Source of the DNA: a virus
Strand: one strand, 5' to 3'
DNA: 43,954 bases
Virus record (IMG/VR): IMGVR_UViG_3300018074_000007
Span: 1 to 43,954 of that record
The translations under genes and the position numbers were made by a program. The notes beneath the pieces are model-generated. The model saw only the letters and a list, made by a program, of their open reading frames with translations. It was not told the origin of the DNA and ran no database searches. Within the stretch, counting starts at the first letter, position 1. Every line of letters begins with the position of its first letter. This document shows positions 6,019 through 43,954 of the stretch, in pieces.

Positions 6019-6100
6019 GGTGGAGATGCTCGTGAGAGGGCAGCCCGACTGTAAATCGGGTTCAGCGCACGCTGAGTGGGTCTGAATCCCACCTCCACCA
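6019..6100 (+). tRNA. tRNA-Tyr (GUA)
   Basis: A full cloverleaf can be folded by eye. The acceptor stem is GGTGGAG/CTCCACC (perfect 7 bp) with discriminator A at 6100. The D stem is GCTC/GGGC. The anticodon stem is CCCGA/TCGGG with loop CTGTAAA, anticodon GUA. The long variable arm is TCAGC/GCTGA, the class II feature expected of bacterial tRNA-Tyr. The T stem is GTGGG/CCCAC with loop TCTGAAT, departing slightly from TTCRANY. No CCA is encoded. It lies between the DUF2815 and polymerase genes and is probably processed from the early transcript. Confidence 0.93.
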
Positions 6101-12048: not shown

Positions 12049-12401
12049 GAGAATACGAAACGGGCGCGACCCGCGACACCGCGGAGGGGAAGTTCGACTA
12101 CGAGGGGTTCCTCGCCCCGCGTGTCCTACGTCGGTTCGCTGAATACATGCACCAGCACCGGGTCCAAGCGGATGGACAGCTCCGCGACAGCGACAACTGG
12201 CAGAAAGGGATGCCGCTGGAGGATTACCTGAAGAGCGGGTTCCGGCACTTCATGGATTGGTGGACCGCCCACCGCGCGGGCCGGATTGATGAAGAGGCGC
12301 TGTGTGCGCTGCTCTTCAACACGATGGGGTACCTGTTTGAGGCCACCCGCCCGGCCGTGATTGCGGGCTTCCTCTCGCCCCCTCGGGGCTGCGCCGAATG
12401 A
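12045..12401 (+). CDS. DUF5664 / MazZ-like dNTP diphosphohydrolase-family protein
   Basis: 118 aa from ATG 12045 (overlap with the HD gene). It matches the pattern I know for DUF5664, now named for dATP/dGTP diphosphohydrolase N-terminal domains: ETGATRDTAEGKFDYEGF, then DNWQKGMPLEDYLKSGFRHF, a linker, and DEEALCALLFNTMGYLFE. This is an all-alpha, MazG-like arrangement with acidic residues on helices that would bind metal. MazZ of Z-genome phages belongs to this group, but most members have not been tested. Pairing with the HD hydrolase suggests control of purine deoxynucleotides. Confidence 0.75.
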   Translation: MREYETGATRDTAEGKFDYEGFLAPRVLRRFAEYMHQHRVQADGQLRDSDNWQKGMPLEDYLKSGFRHFMDWWTAHRAGRIDEEALCALLFNTMGYLFEATRPAVIAGFLSPPRGCAE

Positions 12402-12574
12402 CCCCCGCCCTGCGTTCGGACATCCTGACTTTGCAGGAAGTCGCGGCGTGGCTCAAGATCACCCCTCGGCATGTTCTGCGGCTCGGGATACCCTGTTGTG
12501 ACCTGGGCCACAAGACTAAGCGCTTCCTGGAGGCCGATATACGGGCCTGGCTGGAGCGCCGCCGGAGCACTTGA
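12398..12574 (+). CDS. excisionase-like helix-turn-helix protein, 58 aa
   Basis: Short gene from ATG 12398 (ATGA overlap). The sequence LTLQEVAAWLKITPRHVLRL is a winged helix-turn-helix of the excisionase/AlpA (MerR-like) type, and LEADIRAWLERRR is the usual ending, where the wing leads into a basic helix. Its position two genes upstream of the integrase makes it a good candidate for the recombination directionality factor. It could instead be a small transcription regulator, because a perfect 17-bp dyad lies 6 nt after its stop. Confidence 0.75.
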   Translation: MTPALRSDILTLQEVAAWLKITPRHVLRLGIPCCDLGHKTKRFLEADIRAWLERRRST

Positions 12575-12598
12575 TTCGAGATACCAGACTGGTATCTT
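12571..12598 (+). promoter_or_regulatory. putative promoter for the integrase pair, with embedded operator
   Basis: TTGATT at 12571-12576 and TATCTT at 12593-12598 are separated by 16 bp and resemble sigma-70 -35 and -10 boxes (four of six matches each). The -10 is preceded by TGG, giving an extended -10 form. The dyad at 12580-12596 fills the spacer and overlaps the -10, so a bound protein should block or remodel transcription. The downstream gene at 12626 has a good ribosome-binding site (GGGGAG). By eye only; not tested. Confidence 0.5.
12580..12596. promoter_or_regulatory. operator-like 17-bp dyad, perfect copy
   Basis: GATACCA-GAC-TGGTATC is a perfect inverted repeat with 7-bp arms and a 3-bp centre, the size of lambdoid repressor operators. 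Three further copies with one or two changes lie at 41702, 43327 and 43350. It sits between the likely -35 and -10 of the promoter for the 12626 gene and integrase. The binding protein is not identified. Confidence 0.7.
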
Positions 12599-12625: not shown

Positions 12626-13123
12626 ATGGTCGTAACGGTGATTCTTGGCAAGTCGAAGGGTGGTGGGCTGGCCAAGCTGGAGATTTCCTTGACGGACGGG
12701 GAGTTCAGTGTCTGCGGCGAGACGCGCCATAGCGGCGGGCAGAACATTGACCACATCCACGAGGAAATCTCGACGTGGGACCCCGGCGCGCAGGAGAAGC
12801 TCGCCAAGGTTCGCGCGTGGTGGGAGCGGTGGCACCTGAATCACATGAGGGCCGGGTGCGAGCACCAGCGCGCCGAGAAGTGGGCTGAGCGCCCGATTGA
12901 TCCCTCGAAGCCGACCAACGCCTACGGCATTCACTTCGAGGGGCAGCAGCACGCATCATGGAACATGCTGACCTGGGTCTCGCGGAAGGAGCACCCGCAG
13001 GGCCTGTTGTCGGAGCCATGCCCGACCTGCGGTTATAAGTACGGGTCGGCGTGGTTGAAGGAGGAAATCCCGGCTGATGTCGTGGCCGAGATCGAGACAT
13101 TCCTTAGCCAGGAGGCCAAGTGA
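12626..13123 (+). CDS. conserved phage protein of unknown function, 165 aa
   Basis: ATG 12626 follows GGGGAG at proper spacing. The middle and C-terminal parts match a phage protein type I recognise without a function: WERWHLNHMRAGCEHQRAEK, then ASWNMLTWVSRKEHPQGLL and PCPTCGYKYGSAWL. Cys/His residues (GCEHQ, CPTCG) suggest metal binding. It is coupled by GTGA overlap to the integrase, so both come from the operator-controlled promoter upstream. A role in lysogeny or simple hitch-hiking are both possible. Confidence 0.7.
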   Translation: MVVTVILGKSKGGGLAKLEISLTDGEFSVCGETRHSGGQNIDHIHEEISTWDPGAQEKLAKVRAWWERWHLNHMRAGCEHQRAEKWAERPIDPSKPTNAYGIHFEGQQHASWNMLTWVSRKEHPQGLLSEPCPTCGYKYGSAWLKEEIPADVVAEIETFLSQEAK

Positions 13124-14166
13124 GTCGCGGACTCGGACGAGTCTACCGGCAGCCGGGGTCCGGCAAGTGGATGCTGGACTACACGGTCGGTGGCGTGCGC
13201 CACCGGGAGCCGAGTGGGACCAAGGTGAAGGCTGACGCGCAGACGATGCTGCGTCAGAAGATCGGGGACCGGGAGACCGGCAAGATCGTCGGGCGCCCGG
13301 ACAAGGTGACGCTCGTGGACCTGAAGAATGGTCTGGAGCGGCACTACACGCGCGAGAACAACCGCTCTTGGTCGAGCGCGAAGTACGCATTCGCGCATCT
13401 GGAGCGGCTGCTCGGCCCAATCACCCCGGCGTCAGACCTGACGACGGCGCGGTTGAGCTGGTACCTCGATATGCGCCTGAAGGAAGGCGCGGCGCGTTCC
13501 ACCGTGCGGAGTGAGATCGCGAATCTCAATTCAGCGTTCACGGTGGCGGTCGTGGAGGATCAGGTCCTGGCCTCGAAGCCGACGTTCGCGATGCCGACCG
13601 TCCATAACGCACGGTCGGGGTTCTTCGAGAACGGGGATGTGGCGGCGCTGATGCTGGAGCTGCCCACGCCCTTGCACCGCAGCATCGTGCGGTTCGCGTC
13701 GTTCACCGGCTGGCGGCGCGGCGAGATTCTCGGCCTCACCTGGGATCAAATCAATCTGGAGTCCAAGGTGGTTCGGATCGACCCGCCGACCGAGGCCAAG
13801 CGGGCGAAGGGGAATGATGCCCGGACGATCCCGTTCGCCAAGACGCCGCTCGACGCGCTGTTGCAGGAGCGTTGGGCTGAGCGCGATGGTCCGTTCGTGT
13901 TCCACAAGGACGGGAAGCGGCTCCAGACGTTCTACAAGGTCTGGAAGTCGGCCTGCAAGCGAGCTGGGCTCCAGGGGCGACGGGTGCATGACTTCCGGCG
14001 CTCAGCGGCGCGCGATCTCGTCAACTCGGGCGTGCCGGAGAAGGTCGCCATGCAGATCGTGGGCTGGAAGACGCGGGCGATGTTCGACCGCTATCACATC
14101 GTGAACGAGGCCGACGTGGCCGAGGCGCTCCAGAAGCGGGAGCAGAAACAGAGGGCTGCGGCATAG
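13120..14166 (+). CDS. int: tyrosine recombinase (integrase)
   Basis: 348 aa from GTG 13120 (GTGA overlap). An N-terminal arm-binding region is followed by a SAM-like core-binding domain (about 70-160) and the catalytic domain. Catalytic residues visible are Arg near 198 in TGWRRGEILGLTW, the His/Arg box HDFRR near 290, the W/H position in GWKTRAMF and the nucleophile Tyr near 325 in DRYHIV. The gene ends within the first of two tandem 11-bp repeats and 60 bp before a tRNA-derived attachment core. It should catalyse integration at a tRNA-Thr gene. Confidence 0.95.
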   Translation: MSRGLGRVYRQPGSGKWMLDYTVGGVRHREPSGTKVKADAQTMLRQKIGDRETGKIVGRPDKVTLVDLKNGLERHYTRENNRSWSSAKYAFAHLERLLGPITPASDLTTARLSWYLDMRLKEGAARSTVRSEIANLNSAFTVAVVEDQVLASKPTFAMPTVHNARSGFFENGDVAALMLELPTPLHRSIVRFASFTGWRRGEILGLTWDQINLESKVVRIDPPTEAKRAKGNDARTIPFAKTPLDALLQERWAERDGPFVFHKDGKRLQTFYKVWKSACKRAGLQGRRVHDFRRSAARDLVNSGVPEKVAMQIVGWKTRAMFDRYHIVNEADVAEALQKREQKQRAAA

Positions 14167-14178
14167 TTGCGGCATAGT
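14157..14178 (+). repeat. tandem 11-bp repeats, probable integrase arm-type sites (left)
   Basis: TGCGGCATAGT occurs twice head to tail (14157-14167 and 14168-14178). The first copy includes the integrase stop codon. The same motif, with A in place of G at position two, is paired again on the other side of the attachment core. Paired direct repeats on both sides of a core are the usual layout of arm-type binding sites for lambda-like integrases. Confidence 0.75.
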
Positions 14179-14226
14179 TTTCGGTTTCCGCAGGGTTGGT
14201 CAAAACGTAAGTCCTTCTGTTGCAAG

Positions 14227-14270
14227 AGCCACCGGGGAGATTTGAACTCCCGACCGCTCGATTACGAATC
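14227..14270 (-). other. attP: attP core: 3' half of a tRNA-Thr (CGU) gene
   Basis: Read on the minus strand, the segment carries the 3' half of a tRNA. It begins with the anticodon loop TTCGTAA (anticodon CGU), then the 3' anticodon-stem strand TCGAG, variable loop CGGTC, T arm GGGAG-TTCAAAT-CTCCC, acceptor 3' strand CGGTGGC and discriminator T. The 5' half is missing: a perfect partner for TCGAG is not present. Integrase lies on the tRNA 3' side and phage genes on the other, so this is attP and not attL or attR. Integration would restore an intact host tRNA gene. Confidence 0.88.
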
Positions 14271-14300
14271 CGGGGCCGCTGAGCGCGGCCCCGGTTTTTT
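14270..14300 (+). terminator. intrinsic terminator after the integrase gene
   Basis: A perfect 10-bp GC stem, CCGGGGCCGC (14270-14279) and GCGGCCCCGG (14285-14294), with loop TGAGC, is followed by six T residues. This is a strong rho-independent terminator for the rightward arm. It starts at the very end of the attachment core, so recombination would separate the integrase gene from this terminator. Confidence 0.9.
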
Positions 14301-14352
14301 GTGCTCAAGTGAGTAGGAATGAGACACTATTTACACCCCCTGTCCGACATGG

Positions 14353-14375
14353 TACGGCATAGTCTACGGCATAGT
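14353..14375 (+). repeat. tandem 11-bp repeats, probable integrase arm-type sites (right)
   Basis: TACGGCATAGT occurs at 14353-14363 and again at 14365-14375, one base apart. Together with the left pair the consensus is TRCGGCATAGT, and in both pairs the second copy is followed by TTTC. The pair lies 83 bp beyond the core, on the P' side. Confidence 0.7.
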
Positions 14376-14383
14376 TTTCCCGC

Positions 14384-16979: not shown

Positions 16980-17393
16980 TTAAGTTCCATTGGCGGCACC
17001 TCGTCGCACACTGGACACCGGATCGAAAGCCCCCAGGAGCTGCCTGCGTGCCGAGCGGAAAAGTATCTCTCCCACCCGGTGGGTAAGAGCGGCGCCAGGA
17101 ATCCCCAGGCTCTCCGCGTAGAGATCGAGGAAAGTTTTGCAGTGACCGTACGCGAATGCGATATGACGCTCAAGCTCAGCTTCTGCGCTGCCGTTCGATG
17201 ATGGAGCTTCCGCGCGGCGAGTCCCATGTTTCTTGCCTTTCCAGAGGTTAGTCTTGCGGTGGGGATTCTGGATGCATGTCAGCATGTGGTAGCGCATCCC
17301 GGTCTCGCTGGTGTACGCCTTGCCCGACTTCGTGGTCGTGGTACCGCAGAACTCACACTTGAGGGTCTTCTGGACTGCTGTTCCTGACGCCAT
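16980..17393 (-). CDS. C2H2-like zinc-finger protein, 137 aa
   Basis: ATG 17393 follows AGGAG at about 10 nt; longer in-frame versions would run into the structured non-coding segment. The N-terminal part has a classical finger pattern, CEFCGTTTTKSGKAY followed by RYHMLTC, with spacing near C-x2-C-x16-H-x4-C. The C-terminal part is helical and basic. It is the first gene of the leftward accessory cluster and could be its DNA-binding regulator, but that is inference. Confidence 0.65.
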   Translation of the reverse strand: MASGTAVQKTLKCEFCGTTTTKSGKAYTSETGMRYHMLTCIQNPHRKTNLWKGKKHGTRRAEAPSSNGSAEAELERHIAFAYGHCKTFLDLYAESLGIPGAALTHRVGEILFRSARRQLLGAFDPVSSVRRGAANGT

Positions 17394-41618: not shown

Positions 41619-41640
41619 CCGGCATAGCTGCGGCATAGCG
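41619..41640 (+). repeat. tandem CGGCATAGC pair, similar to integrase arm sites
   Basis: CCCGGCATAGC and TGCGGCATAGC lie head to tail with the same 11-bp period as the repeats around attP, differing mainly in a C after GGCATAG. The pair is in the 217-nt gene-free stretch 41557-41773, 27 kb from the attachment site (about 16.5 kb the other way round on a circle). Confidence 0.5.
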
Positions 41641-41701: not shown

Positions 41702-41718
41702 GCTACCAGCGTGGTATC
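41702..41718. promoter_or_regulatory. operator-like 17-bp dyad, near-perfect copy
   Basis: GCTACCA-GCG-TGGTATC, one change from the perfect copy at 12580. The right half extends to TGGTATCAT, an extended -10-like sequence reading right, without a good -35. It lies in the 217-nt gap downstream of the 47-aa gene and upstream of the leftward membrane, terminase and portal genes, so it could instead control leftward transcription. Confidence 0.65.
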
Positions 41719-41773: not shown

Positions 41774-41917
41774 CTACGCGCGAGCTACAGTAACCACAGG
41801 ACCAACGTACTCGAACCCATTCGCTTGTCCTGTTCTCGTCATCACATCAGCGAACTCGATGCGATCCAAGTATGGACGATCCTTGAGCCAGCGCGTGAAG
41901 ACAGCACGCCAGTTCAT
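41774..41917 (-). CDS. hypothetical protein, 47 aa
   Basis: ATG 41917 follows GGAG at about 5 nt. The peptide looks protein-like and folded (NWRAVFTRWLKDRPYLDRIE, then GFEYVGPVVTVARA). It is 14 nt after the previous gene and precedes a 217-nt gap. Function unknown. Confidence 0.55.
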   Translation of the reverse strand: MNWRAVFTRWLKDRPYLDRIEFADVMTRTGQANGFEYVGPVVTVARA

Positions 41918-41931
41918 ATACTCCACGTCTC

Positions 41932-42078
41932 TCACTCGGCTCGCCTCACTCGACCCTGACTGTCCAGGTGCTGCGCCATCTGCTCAGCGAGGGACGCTGG
42001 CTTGTGCTTCTTCGACGCGCGCGGCGCCTTGGGCTTCTCAGCCTTCGGACGCCGCGCGTACTTCGCCGCCTTCGGCAT
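41932..42078 (-). CDS. small basic protein, 48 aa
   Basis: ATG 42078 is coupled to the previous stop (TAATG). The first half is Lys/Arg/Pro/Ala-rich (PKAAKYARRPKAEKPKAPRA) and the rest is helical (SLAEQMAQHLDSQG). A nucleic-acid-binding or capsid-associated role is possible. No family recognised. Confidence 0.55.
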   Translation of the reverse strand: MPKAAKYARRPKAEKPKAPRASKKHKPASLAEQMAQHLDSQGRVRRAE

Positions 42079-43182: not shown

Positions 43183-43326
43183 GTTATAGAGGTCTACACA
43201 ATGCAGGCATAGGTGTACCGAAGCCTACGTTCCCCTTCGCCCACCTCCGATTCCAGGCCGAGGATGGCAATGGAACACCGAAGCCAGATGGCCGGGCTTC
43301 CATAAATCGAGTGCTCCTGCCTCCTG

Positions 43327-43343
43327 ATACCATTCTGGTTGCG
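43327..43343. promoter_or_regulatory. operator-like 17-bp dyad, imperfect copy
   Basis: GATACCA-TTC-TGGTTGC: the left half is perfect, the right half has two changes. It lies 23 bp (start to start) before the next copy, close to two helical turns, so two bound dimers could touch. Confidence 0.6.
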
Positions 43344-43368
43344 TCCGTGGTACCAAGCTGGTATCATC
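43340..43368 (+). promoter_or_regulatory. putative rightward early promoter overlapped by an operator
   Basis: TTGCGT (43340-43345) and TATCAT (43363-43368) are 17 bp apart, with TGG before the -10 giving an extended -10. The dyad at 43350-43366 fills the spacer and overlaps the -10. This should drive the gene at 43394 and, if the genome is circular, the whole early arm. Confidence 0.5.
43350..43366. promoter_or_regulatory. operator-like 17-bp dyad, near-perfect copy
   Basis: GGTACCA-AGC-TGGTATC, one change from the perfect copy. It sits over the -10 of the likely early promoter, as the 12580 copy does for the integrase pair. Confidence 0.65.
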
Positions 43369-43393: not shown

Positions 43394-43894
43394 ATGACGA
43401 AGAAGCAACAGGATGGCGGCGCCTTGCCATATGAGCCGCGAGACGAAGTCCACTTCACTCGGCTTGGCGTGGCCTGTATTGAGCAGCACGATCTCGTGGT
43501 CCTAGCGGACGGCGAGAGGTGGCGTATCGTTCGGTTGCTCGCGAAGCGGGATGCGAATAGCAACCTGCGCTACGCCTGCGTGTCGGAAGACGGCGACAAG
43601 GCTGAGGTGCATTCCATCACCGCCTTCGTGGAGTTGTTGCGCCCCGACATCACCCCAAAACTGGCAGCGCTCATGGTGGATCAGGACGGGTTTGATTTCA
43701 CGGTGCGCAATGAAGGCACGGTCTCGACCTTCGAGCCCCACACGGATCGCGCGCGCGACTGGTTGAAGAAGCACGTCCAAGCAGAGTCGTGGCAGTGGCT
43801 CGGGGGTCTGCTCACGGTCGAGCGGCGCTACTCAACCGATCTCCTCTATGGCATCATCAACGAGGGCTTCACCGTCGCGGTGAACCCCACATGA
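43394..43894 (+). CDS. hypothetical protein, first gene of the rightward arm, 166 aa
   Basis: ATG 43394 lies 28 nt after the second operator-like dyad, behind GGATGGGACG. A beta-rich N-terminal part (DLVVLADGERWRIVRLLAKR, an SH3-like or hypermutable strand pattern) is followed by helices and an EVHSITAFVELLRPDITP segment. No helix-turn-helix is visible, so it is not an obvious repressor. As first early gene under the dyads it is a candidate regulator or host-takeover protein. It ends with an ATGA overlap. Confidence 0.65.
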   Translation: MTKKQQDGGALPYEPRDEVHFTRLGVACIEQHDLVVLADGERWRIVRLLAKRDANSNLRYACVSEDGDKAEVHSITAFVELLRPDITPKLAALMVDQDGFDFTVRNEGTVSTFEPHTDRARDWLKKHVQAESWQWLGGLLTVERRYSTDLLYGIINEGFTVAVNPT

Positions 43895-43954
43895 TTGCGC
43901 CCCTGCCAGACGAACGTGAGCACTGTCCGTCGTGCAAGACACGTTCGCGCCGGA
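43891..43954 (+). CDS. start of a small gene at the window edge, CxxC motif
   Basis: ATG 43891 overlaps the previous stop (ATGA) and reads MIAPLPDEREHCPSCKTRSR into the window end without a stop. If the sequence is circular, the frame continues as ACA TAG across the junction and ends at base 5, giving 22 aa. The CPSC pair is zinc-knuckle-like. It is either a true micro-protein or a truncated longer gene. Confidence 0.4.
   Translation, partial: MIAPLPDEREHCPSCKTRSRR

Follow-up and report, generated by a model that had tools for sequence, protein, structure and literature searches.

A family of four symmetric 17-bp sequences, distributed over three intergenic regions of a temperate phage genome, probably constitutes the operators of a dimeric lysogeny repressor; the most likely form of this repressor is a CI/C2-type HTH protein whose gene lies in a portion of the genome absent from the available sequence. 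The DNA analyzed (hereafter, the window) comprises all 43,954 bases of an IMG/VR record, and the motif common to the four sites, numbered here as putative operators 1 to 4, is GATACCA-N3-TGGTATC. On this interpretation, the lysogeny circuit of an uncultured temperate phage would become readable, with a concrete sequence for its operators.

The Dyad Family

The four sites (table 1) form a real, intergenic, operator-like set located at promoter positions. The first-pass annotation of this DNA had described one perfect dyad and three close copies of it that share the same arm length and 3-bp center, and this description was confirmed (0, 1, 2, and 1 mismatches, respectively). The coordinates that it gave were correct for the first two sites and one base too high for each of the last two. 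It had also termed the sites a genome-wide set; several copies do indeed exist, but the expression overstates the distribution of what are only four sites in three intergenic regions. When as many as three mismatches to GATACCA-N3-TGGTATC are tolerated, the window contains no further match (0.66 expected), and hence none of the many equally good copies elsewhere that would have spoken against the first-pass interpretation. A position matrix constructed from the four sites also singles them out: their own scores range from 21.1 to 26.6 bits, and the next best place in the window, which is coding, reaches 13.5 bits.

Over the whole window, the Poisson probability of the family is 8.9e-6, and none of 300 dinucleotide shuffles of the window gave any dyad family as unlikely as this one. 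In the real window, one codon-biased G+C-rich dyad family scores slightly lower (i.e., is more unlikely) than the GATACCA family, and in a looser dyad scan two such families rank above it. Because these codon-biased families compete in the whole-window test, we limited the test to noncoding DNA. There, the GATACCA dyad is the largest family, with four copies, and 300 shuffles reach three at most. All four sites are noncoding in a window of which only 8.2% is noncoding, a coincidence with a chance of about 4e-5. The half-site TGGTATC occurs six times in the 44 kb and five of these occurrences are within the four dyads; similarly, the extended -10 pattern TGNTATNWT has only four matches in the whole window, three of them within dyads.

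Table 1. Coordinates of the dyads and of neighboring features (positions in the window, except for the last line, which gives positions in phiM5)
Feature	Position	Strand	Sequence or product	Remarks
HTH_17 gene, excisionase-like	12398-12574	+	58 aa	Directly upstream of operator 1
Putative integrase-pair promoter	12571-12598	+	TTGATT-16-TATCTT, extended TG (TGGTATCTT)	Consensus match only
Putative operator 1	12580-12596		GATACCA-GAC-TGGTATC	Perfect dyad, 0 mismatches; between xis-like gene and 12626/integrase pair
12626 gene	12626-13123	+	165-aa orphan	First of integrase pair
Tyrosine integrase gene	13120-14166	+		Pfam PF00589, E 1.5e-23
Putative operator 2	41702-41718		GCTACCA-GCG-TGGTATC	1 mismatch; overlaps + strand extended -10 (TGGTATCAT)
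Putative operator 3	43326-43342		GATACCA-TTC-TGGTTGC	2 mismatches; over -35 of putative early promoter
Putative early promoter	43339-43367	+	TTGCGT-17-TATCAT with extended TG	Consensus match only
Putative operator 4	43349-43365		GGTACCA-AGC-TGGTATC	1 mismatch; over extended -10 of putative early promoter
First early gene	43394-43894	+	166 aa, orphan	
phiM5 dyad copies	23171, 29153, 34411, 37483, 43261		TTGTGTT-N3-AACACAA	

The Putative Early Promoter, the Integrase Pair, and the Presumed att Region

Operators 3 and 4 are both located 5' of the first early gene and are separated by a 6-bp spacer; the center-to-center distance of 23 bp that had been reported for this pair was borne out. Operator 3 overlaps the TTGCGT (-35) of the putative early promoter and loses its symmetry exactly where this overlap occurs, and operator 4 covers the extended -10 (TGGTATCAT). 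The left neighbor of the pair is the terminase small subunit gene on the minus strand; no divergent repressor gene adjoins it. The 166-aa product of the first early gene has neither a family match nor a recognizable DNA-binding domain, and its structure model (mean pLDDT 40) is too poor to read.

Operator 1 sits in a 51-bp gap, where it overlaps the putative integrase-pair promoter and covers its extended -10. The 58-aa protein encoded on its upstream side matches Pfam HTH_17 with 27.4 bits (cut-off 27) and a PHROG excisionase with an E value of 0.0015. The structure model of the 165-aa orphan that precedes the integrase is too poor to use. The first-pass annotation had situated two copies of the dyad over extended -10 sequences, before the 12626 pair and before the first early gene; both promoters are present as consensus matches, but a stricter promoter scan reports neither of them.

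A plus-strand transcript from operator 2 would oppose the minus-strand genes at 41774-42078, and no sensible plus-strand gene was found there as a promoter target. The earlier proposal of a repressor that controls both lysis and integration agrees with the positions and the geometry of the sites, and with the recurrence of the layout in phage phiM5 (see below), but it leaves the site at 41702 without a clear promoter target.

The 8-mer CGGCATAG has exactly six copies in the window, all of them on the plus strand and arranged in three pairs 11-12 bp apart. Two of the pairs (14159/14170 and 14355/14367) flank the presumed att core (region 14155-14381), and the third (41620/41631; region 41619-41638) is situated about 65 bp before the 41702 dyad. 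These repeats look like integrase arm-type sites. Beyond the CGGCATAG pair, the alignment of the 41.6-kb region with the att region is no better than that of shuffled sequence. Just after the integrase gene, the minus strand of positions 14226-14275 resembles the 3' half of a tRNA, probably Thr-CGT, with a T-arm GGGAG-TTCAAAT-CTCCC and an anticodon-loop-like TTCGTAA; a strong terminator follows. This tRNA-like stretch is likely to be the attP core. In a search for the host, a 38-mer of the tRNA-derived core had no exact match among 84,980 genomes. A tRNA-Tyr (GTA) gene is found elsewhere in the window (6019-6100), between the DUF2815 and DNA polymerase genes.

A Parallel Layout in Phage phiM5

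IMG/VR searches with the first early gene, the 12626 gene, and the integrase gene found no relatives, and none of the terminase relatives in IMG/VR and in genomes exceeds 55% identity; no relative was close enough for a base-by-base comparison of the dyads. In the terminase relatives that were checked, the GATACCA motif is absent outside coding sequence. Matches with one or two mismatches in L182 and L154 are inside coding genes, and we took them to be chance occurrences. An exact-motif scan of IMG/VR returned at least 120 stretches in which the motif is mostly single and scattered, and a scan for paired sites returned mostly unrelated contigs with no single consistent class of repressor.

The Sinorhizobium phage phiM5 (MF074189.1) has been described as temperate (PMC10386132). 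Its early genes and those of the window have a common, roughly colinear order: helicase, HNH, Cas4-like exonuclease, DUF2815, PolA, primase, and integrase. The terminases of the two are 48-50% identical and the primases only 24%. By this shared early order and by its terminase and portal relatives, the window can be placed with the phiM5-like temperate phages. In an unbiased dyad search of phiM5, the top family was TTGTGTT-N3-AACACAA, whose members are also 17 bp in length with a 7-N3-7 architecture, and a search seeded from the phiM5 integrase gap alone recovered the same set. One copy precedes the integrase gene by 49 bp; others precede polA and the first early gene, and the remaining two lie beside a c2-like HTH gene and at the end of gp55. 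The noncoding DNA of phiM5 contains five copies, and 300 shuffles reach three at most. The whole-genome dyad score is matched by about 4% of random stretches, owing to codon bias, and the phiM5 case therefore rests on the noncoding test. The c2-like protein has a weak similarity to HTH_3. A search for relatives of the phiM5 integrase found none, and the literature searched contained no description of the TTGTGTT-N3-AACACAA set. Four other integrase-bearing relatives (MW202496, G003, G028, and a phiM5-like Enterovirga prophage) gave no comparable significant dyad set. The layout is therefore seen in two phages, this one and phiM5, with a different operator sequence in each, but not across the whole group.

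The Probable Identity of the Repressor

The poorly annotated stretches of the contig were scanned against Pfam in all six frames, and no CI, HTH_3, S24, or RHH domain was detected. It had been argued, from the lack of a recognizable CI-like gene, that the binding protein may be new; this argument is not supported, since the contig is probably open-ended and the equivalent part of phiM5 contains a c2-like HTH gene. An ORF (MIAPLPDEREHCPSCKTRSRR...) that begins at 43891, with an ATGA overlap, is truncated where the contig ends on the right (43891-43954); were it continued from base 1, it would meet a stop immediately. Because this ORF does not continue at base 1, the contig is probably missing sequence. 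The same ORF has a zinc-ribbon-like CPSC motif. The interval between the first early promoter and the helicase gene spans about 9 kb in phiM5 and contains the c2-like gene; here, the two visible ends together account for about 2.6 kb. By comparison with phiM5, the repressor gene may lie in the missing segment.

An alternative that we consider unlikely is that a ribbon-helix-helix (Arc/Mnt-like) repressor, and not a CI/C2-type HTH protein, recognizes the sites. The Mnt operator of P22, GGTCCA-CGG-TGGACC, is a dyad with the same CCA-N3-TGG core as the GATACCA dyad, and an unrelated IMG/VR contig (L238) contains three TACCA-N3-TGGTA sites between two divergent genes, Arc-like by eye. However, the outer bases of the Mnt operator differ, no RHH gene is seen in the window, and the candidate protein of phiM5 is HTH_3-like, though weakly. 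Moreover, an ACCA-N3-TGGT pair in another unrelated contig (L221) is located beside a gene that looks HTH-like by eye; the class of the protein therefore cannot be read from the core. The three sites of the former contig (L238:6477-6543) are about 24-26 bp apart.

It is quite unlikely that the sites are bound by a nonrecognizable protein encoded within the contig, for which the only candidates are the 58-aa HTH_17 protein, the 166-aa first early protein, and the zinc-finger protein at 16980. The HTH_17 gene is directly 5' of operator 1; nevertheless, direct repeats near att sites are the usual targets of excisionase-type proteins, and the 58-aa protein is placed as an excisionase-like partner for the integrase. 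As noted above, the 166-aa protein has no family match and a very poor model. It seems improbable that the phage is devoid of any CI/C2-type repressor and that the dyads are recognized by a protein, such as one of the contig orphans, from a family with no known phage repressors. A similarly low probability attaches to the binding of a host regulator, LexA-like or other, in a phage that itself encodes no repressor. In favor of this view, the scans recognized no repressor in the window, and some temperate phages use the LexA of their host; on the other hand, the dyad motif matches no LexA box known to us, and in phiM5, where the layout is parallel, a c2-like gene of the phage itself adjoins one of the sites. 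Finally, it is highly improbable that the dyad is simply a phage promoter motif (an extended -10, TGGTATCWT) with an incidental left arm: three copies carry TGGTATC[A/T]T, with a plausible -35 spacing at two of them, but a promoter needs no dyad, and all four copies retain TACCA in the left arm, even operator 3, whose right arm is no extended -10.

A Proposed Lysogeny Switch

The four dyads, with their statistics and locations, and the parallel in phiM5 suggest the following scheme for a dimeric CI/C2-type repressor. Each half of the repressor dimer would read one GATACCA arm. At the early promoter, two dimers 23 bp apart would cover both the -35 and the extended -10, turning off the early operon; before 12626, occupation of the one site that overlaps the extended -10 would turn off the integrase pair. 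The excisionase-like gene, being upstream of this internal promoter, would be reached by the early transcript alone. After infection, and before the repressor accumulates, the internal promoter could then make integrase without excisionase; on induction, both integrase and excisionase would be made from the early transcript. The repressor itself would be encoded in the stretch before the helicase gene, where phiM5 has its c2-like gene.

Comparison with Known Systems

The window and phiM5 both have a 17-bp 7-N3-7 dyad before the integrase and before the first early gene, a similar early gene order, and a temperate lifestyle. Their arm sequences differ, however; the arm resembles a -35 (TTGTGT) in phiM5 and a -10 here, and phiM5 has extra copies before polA and in the vicinity of the c2-like gene and of gp55. 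This parallel suggests that the 17-bp layout can be retained even when the operator sequence changes, as is to be expected where immunity groups diverge. Related heteroimmune mycobacteriophages of the L5 type use different stoperator consensus sequences (PMC6550527). The stoperators of L5-type phages number 20-30 per genome, are asymmetric, and are mostly in one orientation (PMC6550527). The window resembles such genomes in having putative repressor sites at several places, but in place of 20-30 asymmetric sites it has four symmetric intergenic ones.

In phage lambda, the OR and OL operators bound by CI and Cro are 17-bp dyads, with neighbors 6-7 bp apart, that lie over the -35 and -10 of an early promoter. 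The dyads of the window are likewise 17 bp long and more numerous than chance would produce, and the tandem pair, with its 6-bp spacer and 23-bp spacing, lies over the -35 and -10 of a putative early promoter. The differences from lambda are the operator sequence, the presence of only two early-promoter sites, the further copy over the integrase-pair promoter, and the lack of a divergent repressor gene beside the operators; no repressor gene was recognized elsewhere in the contig either. We see no sign of a new kind of regulator; the set is most like a lambda-type lysogeny switch that has a new operator sequence.
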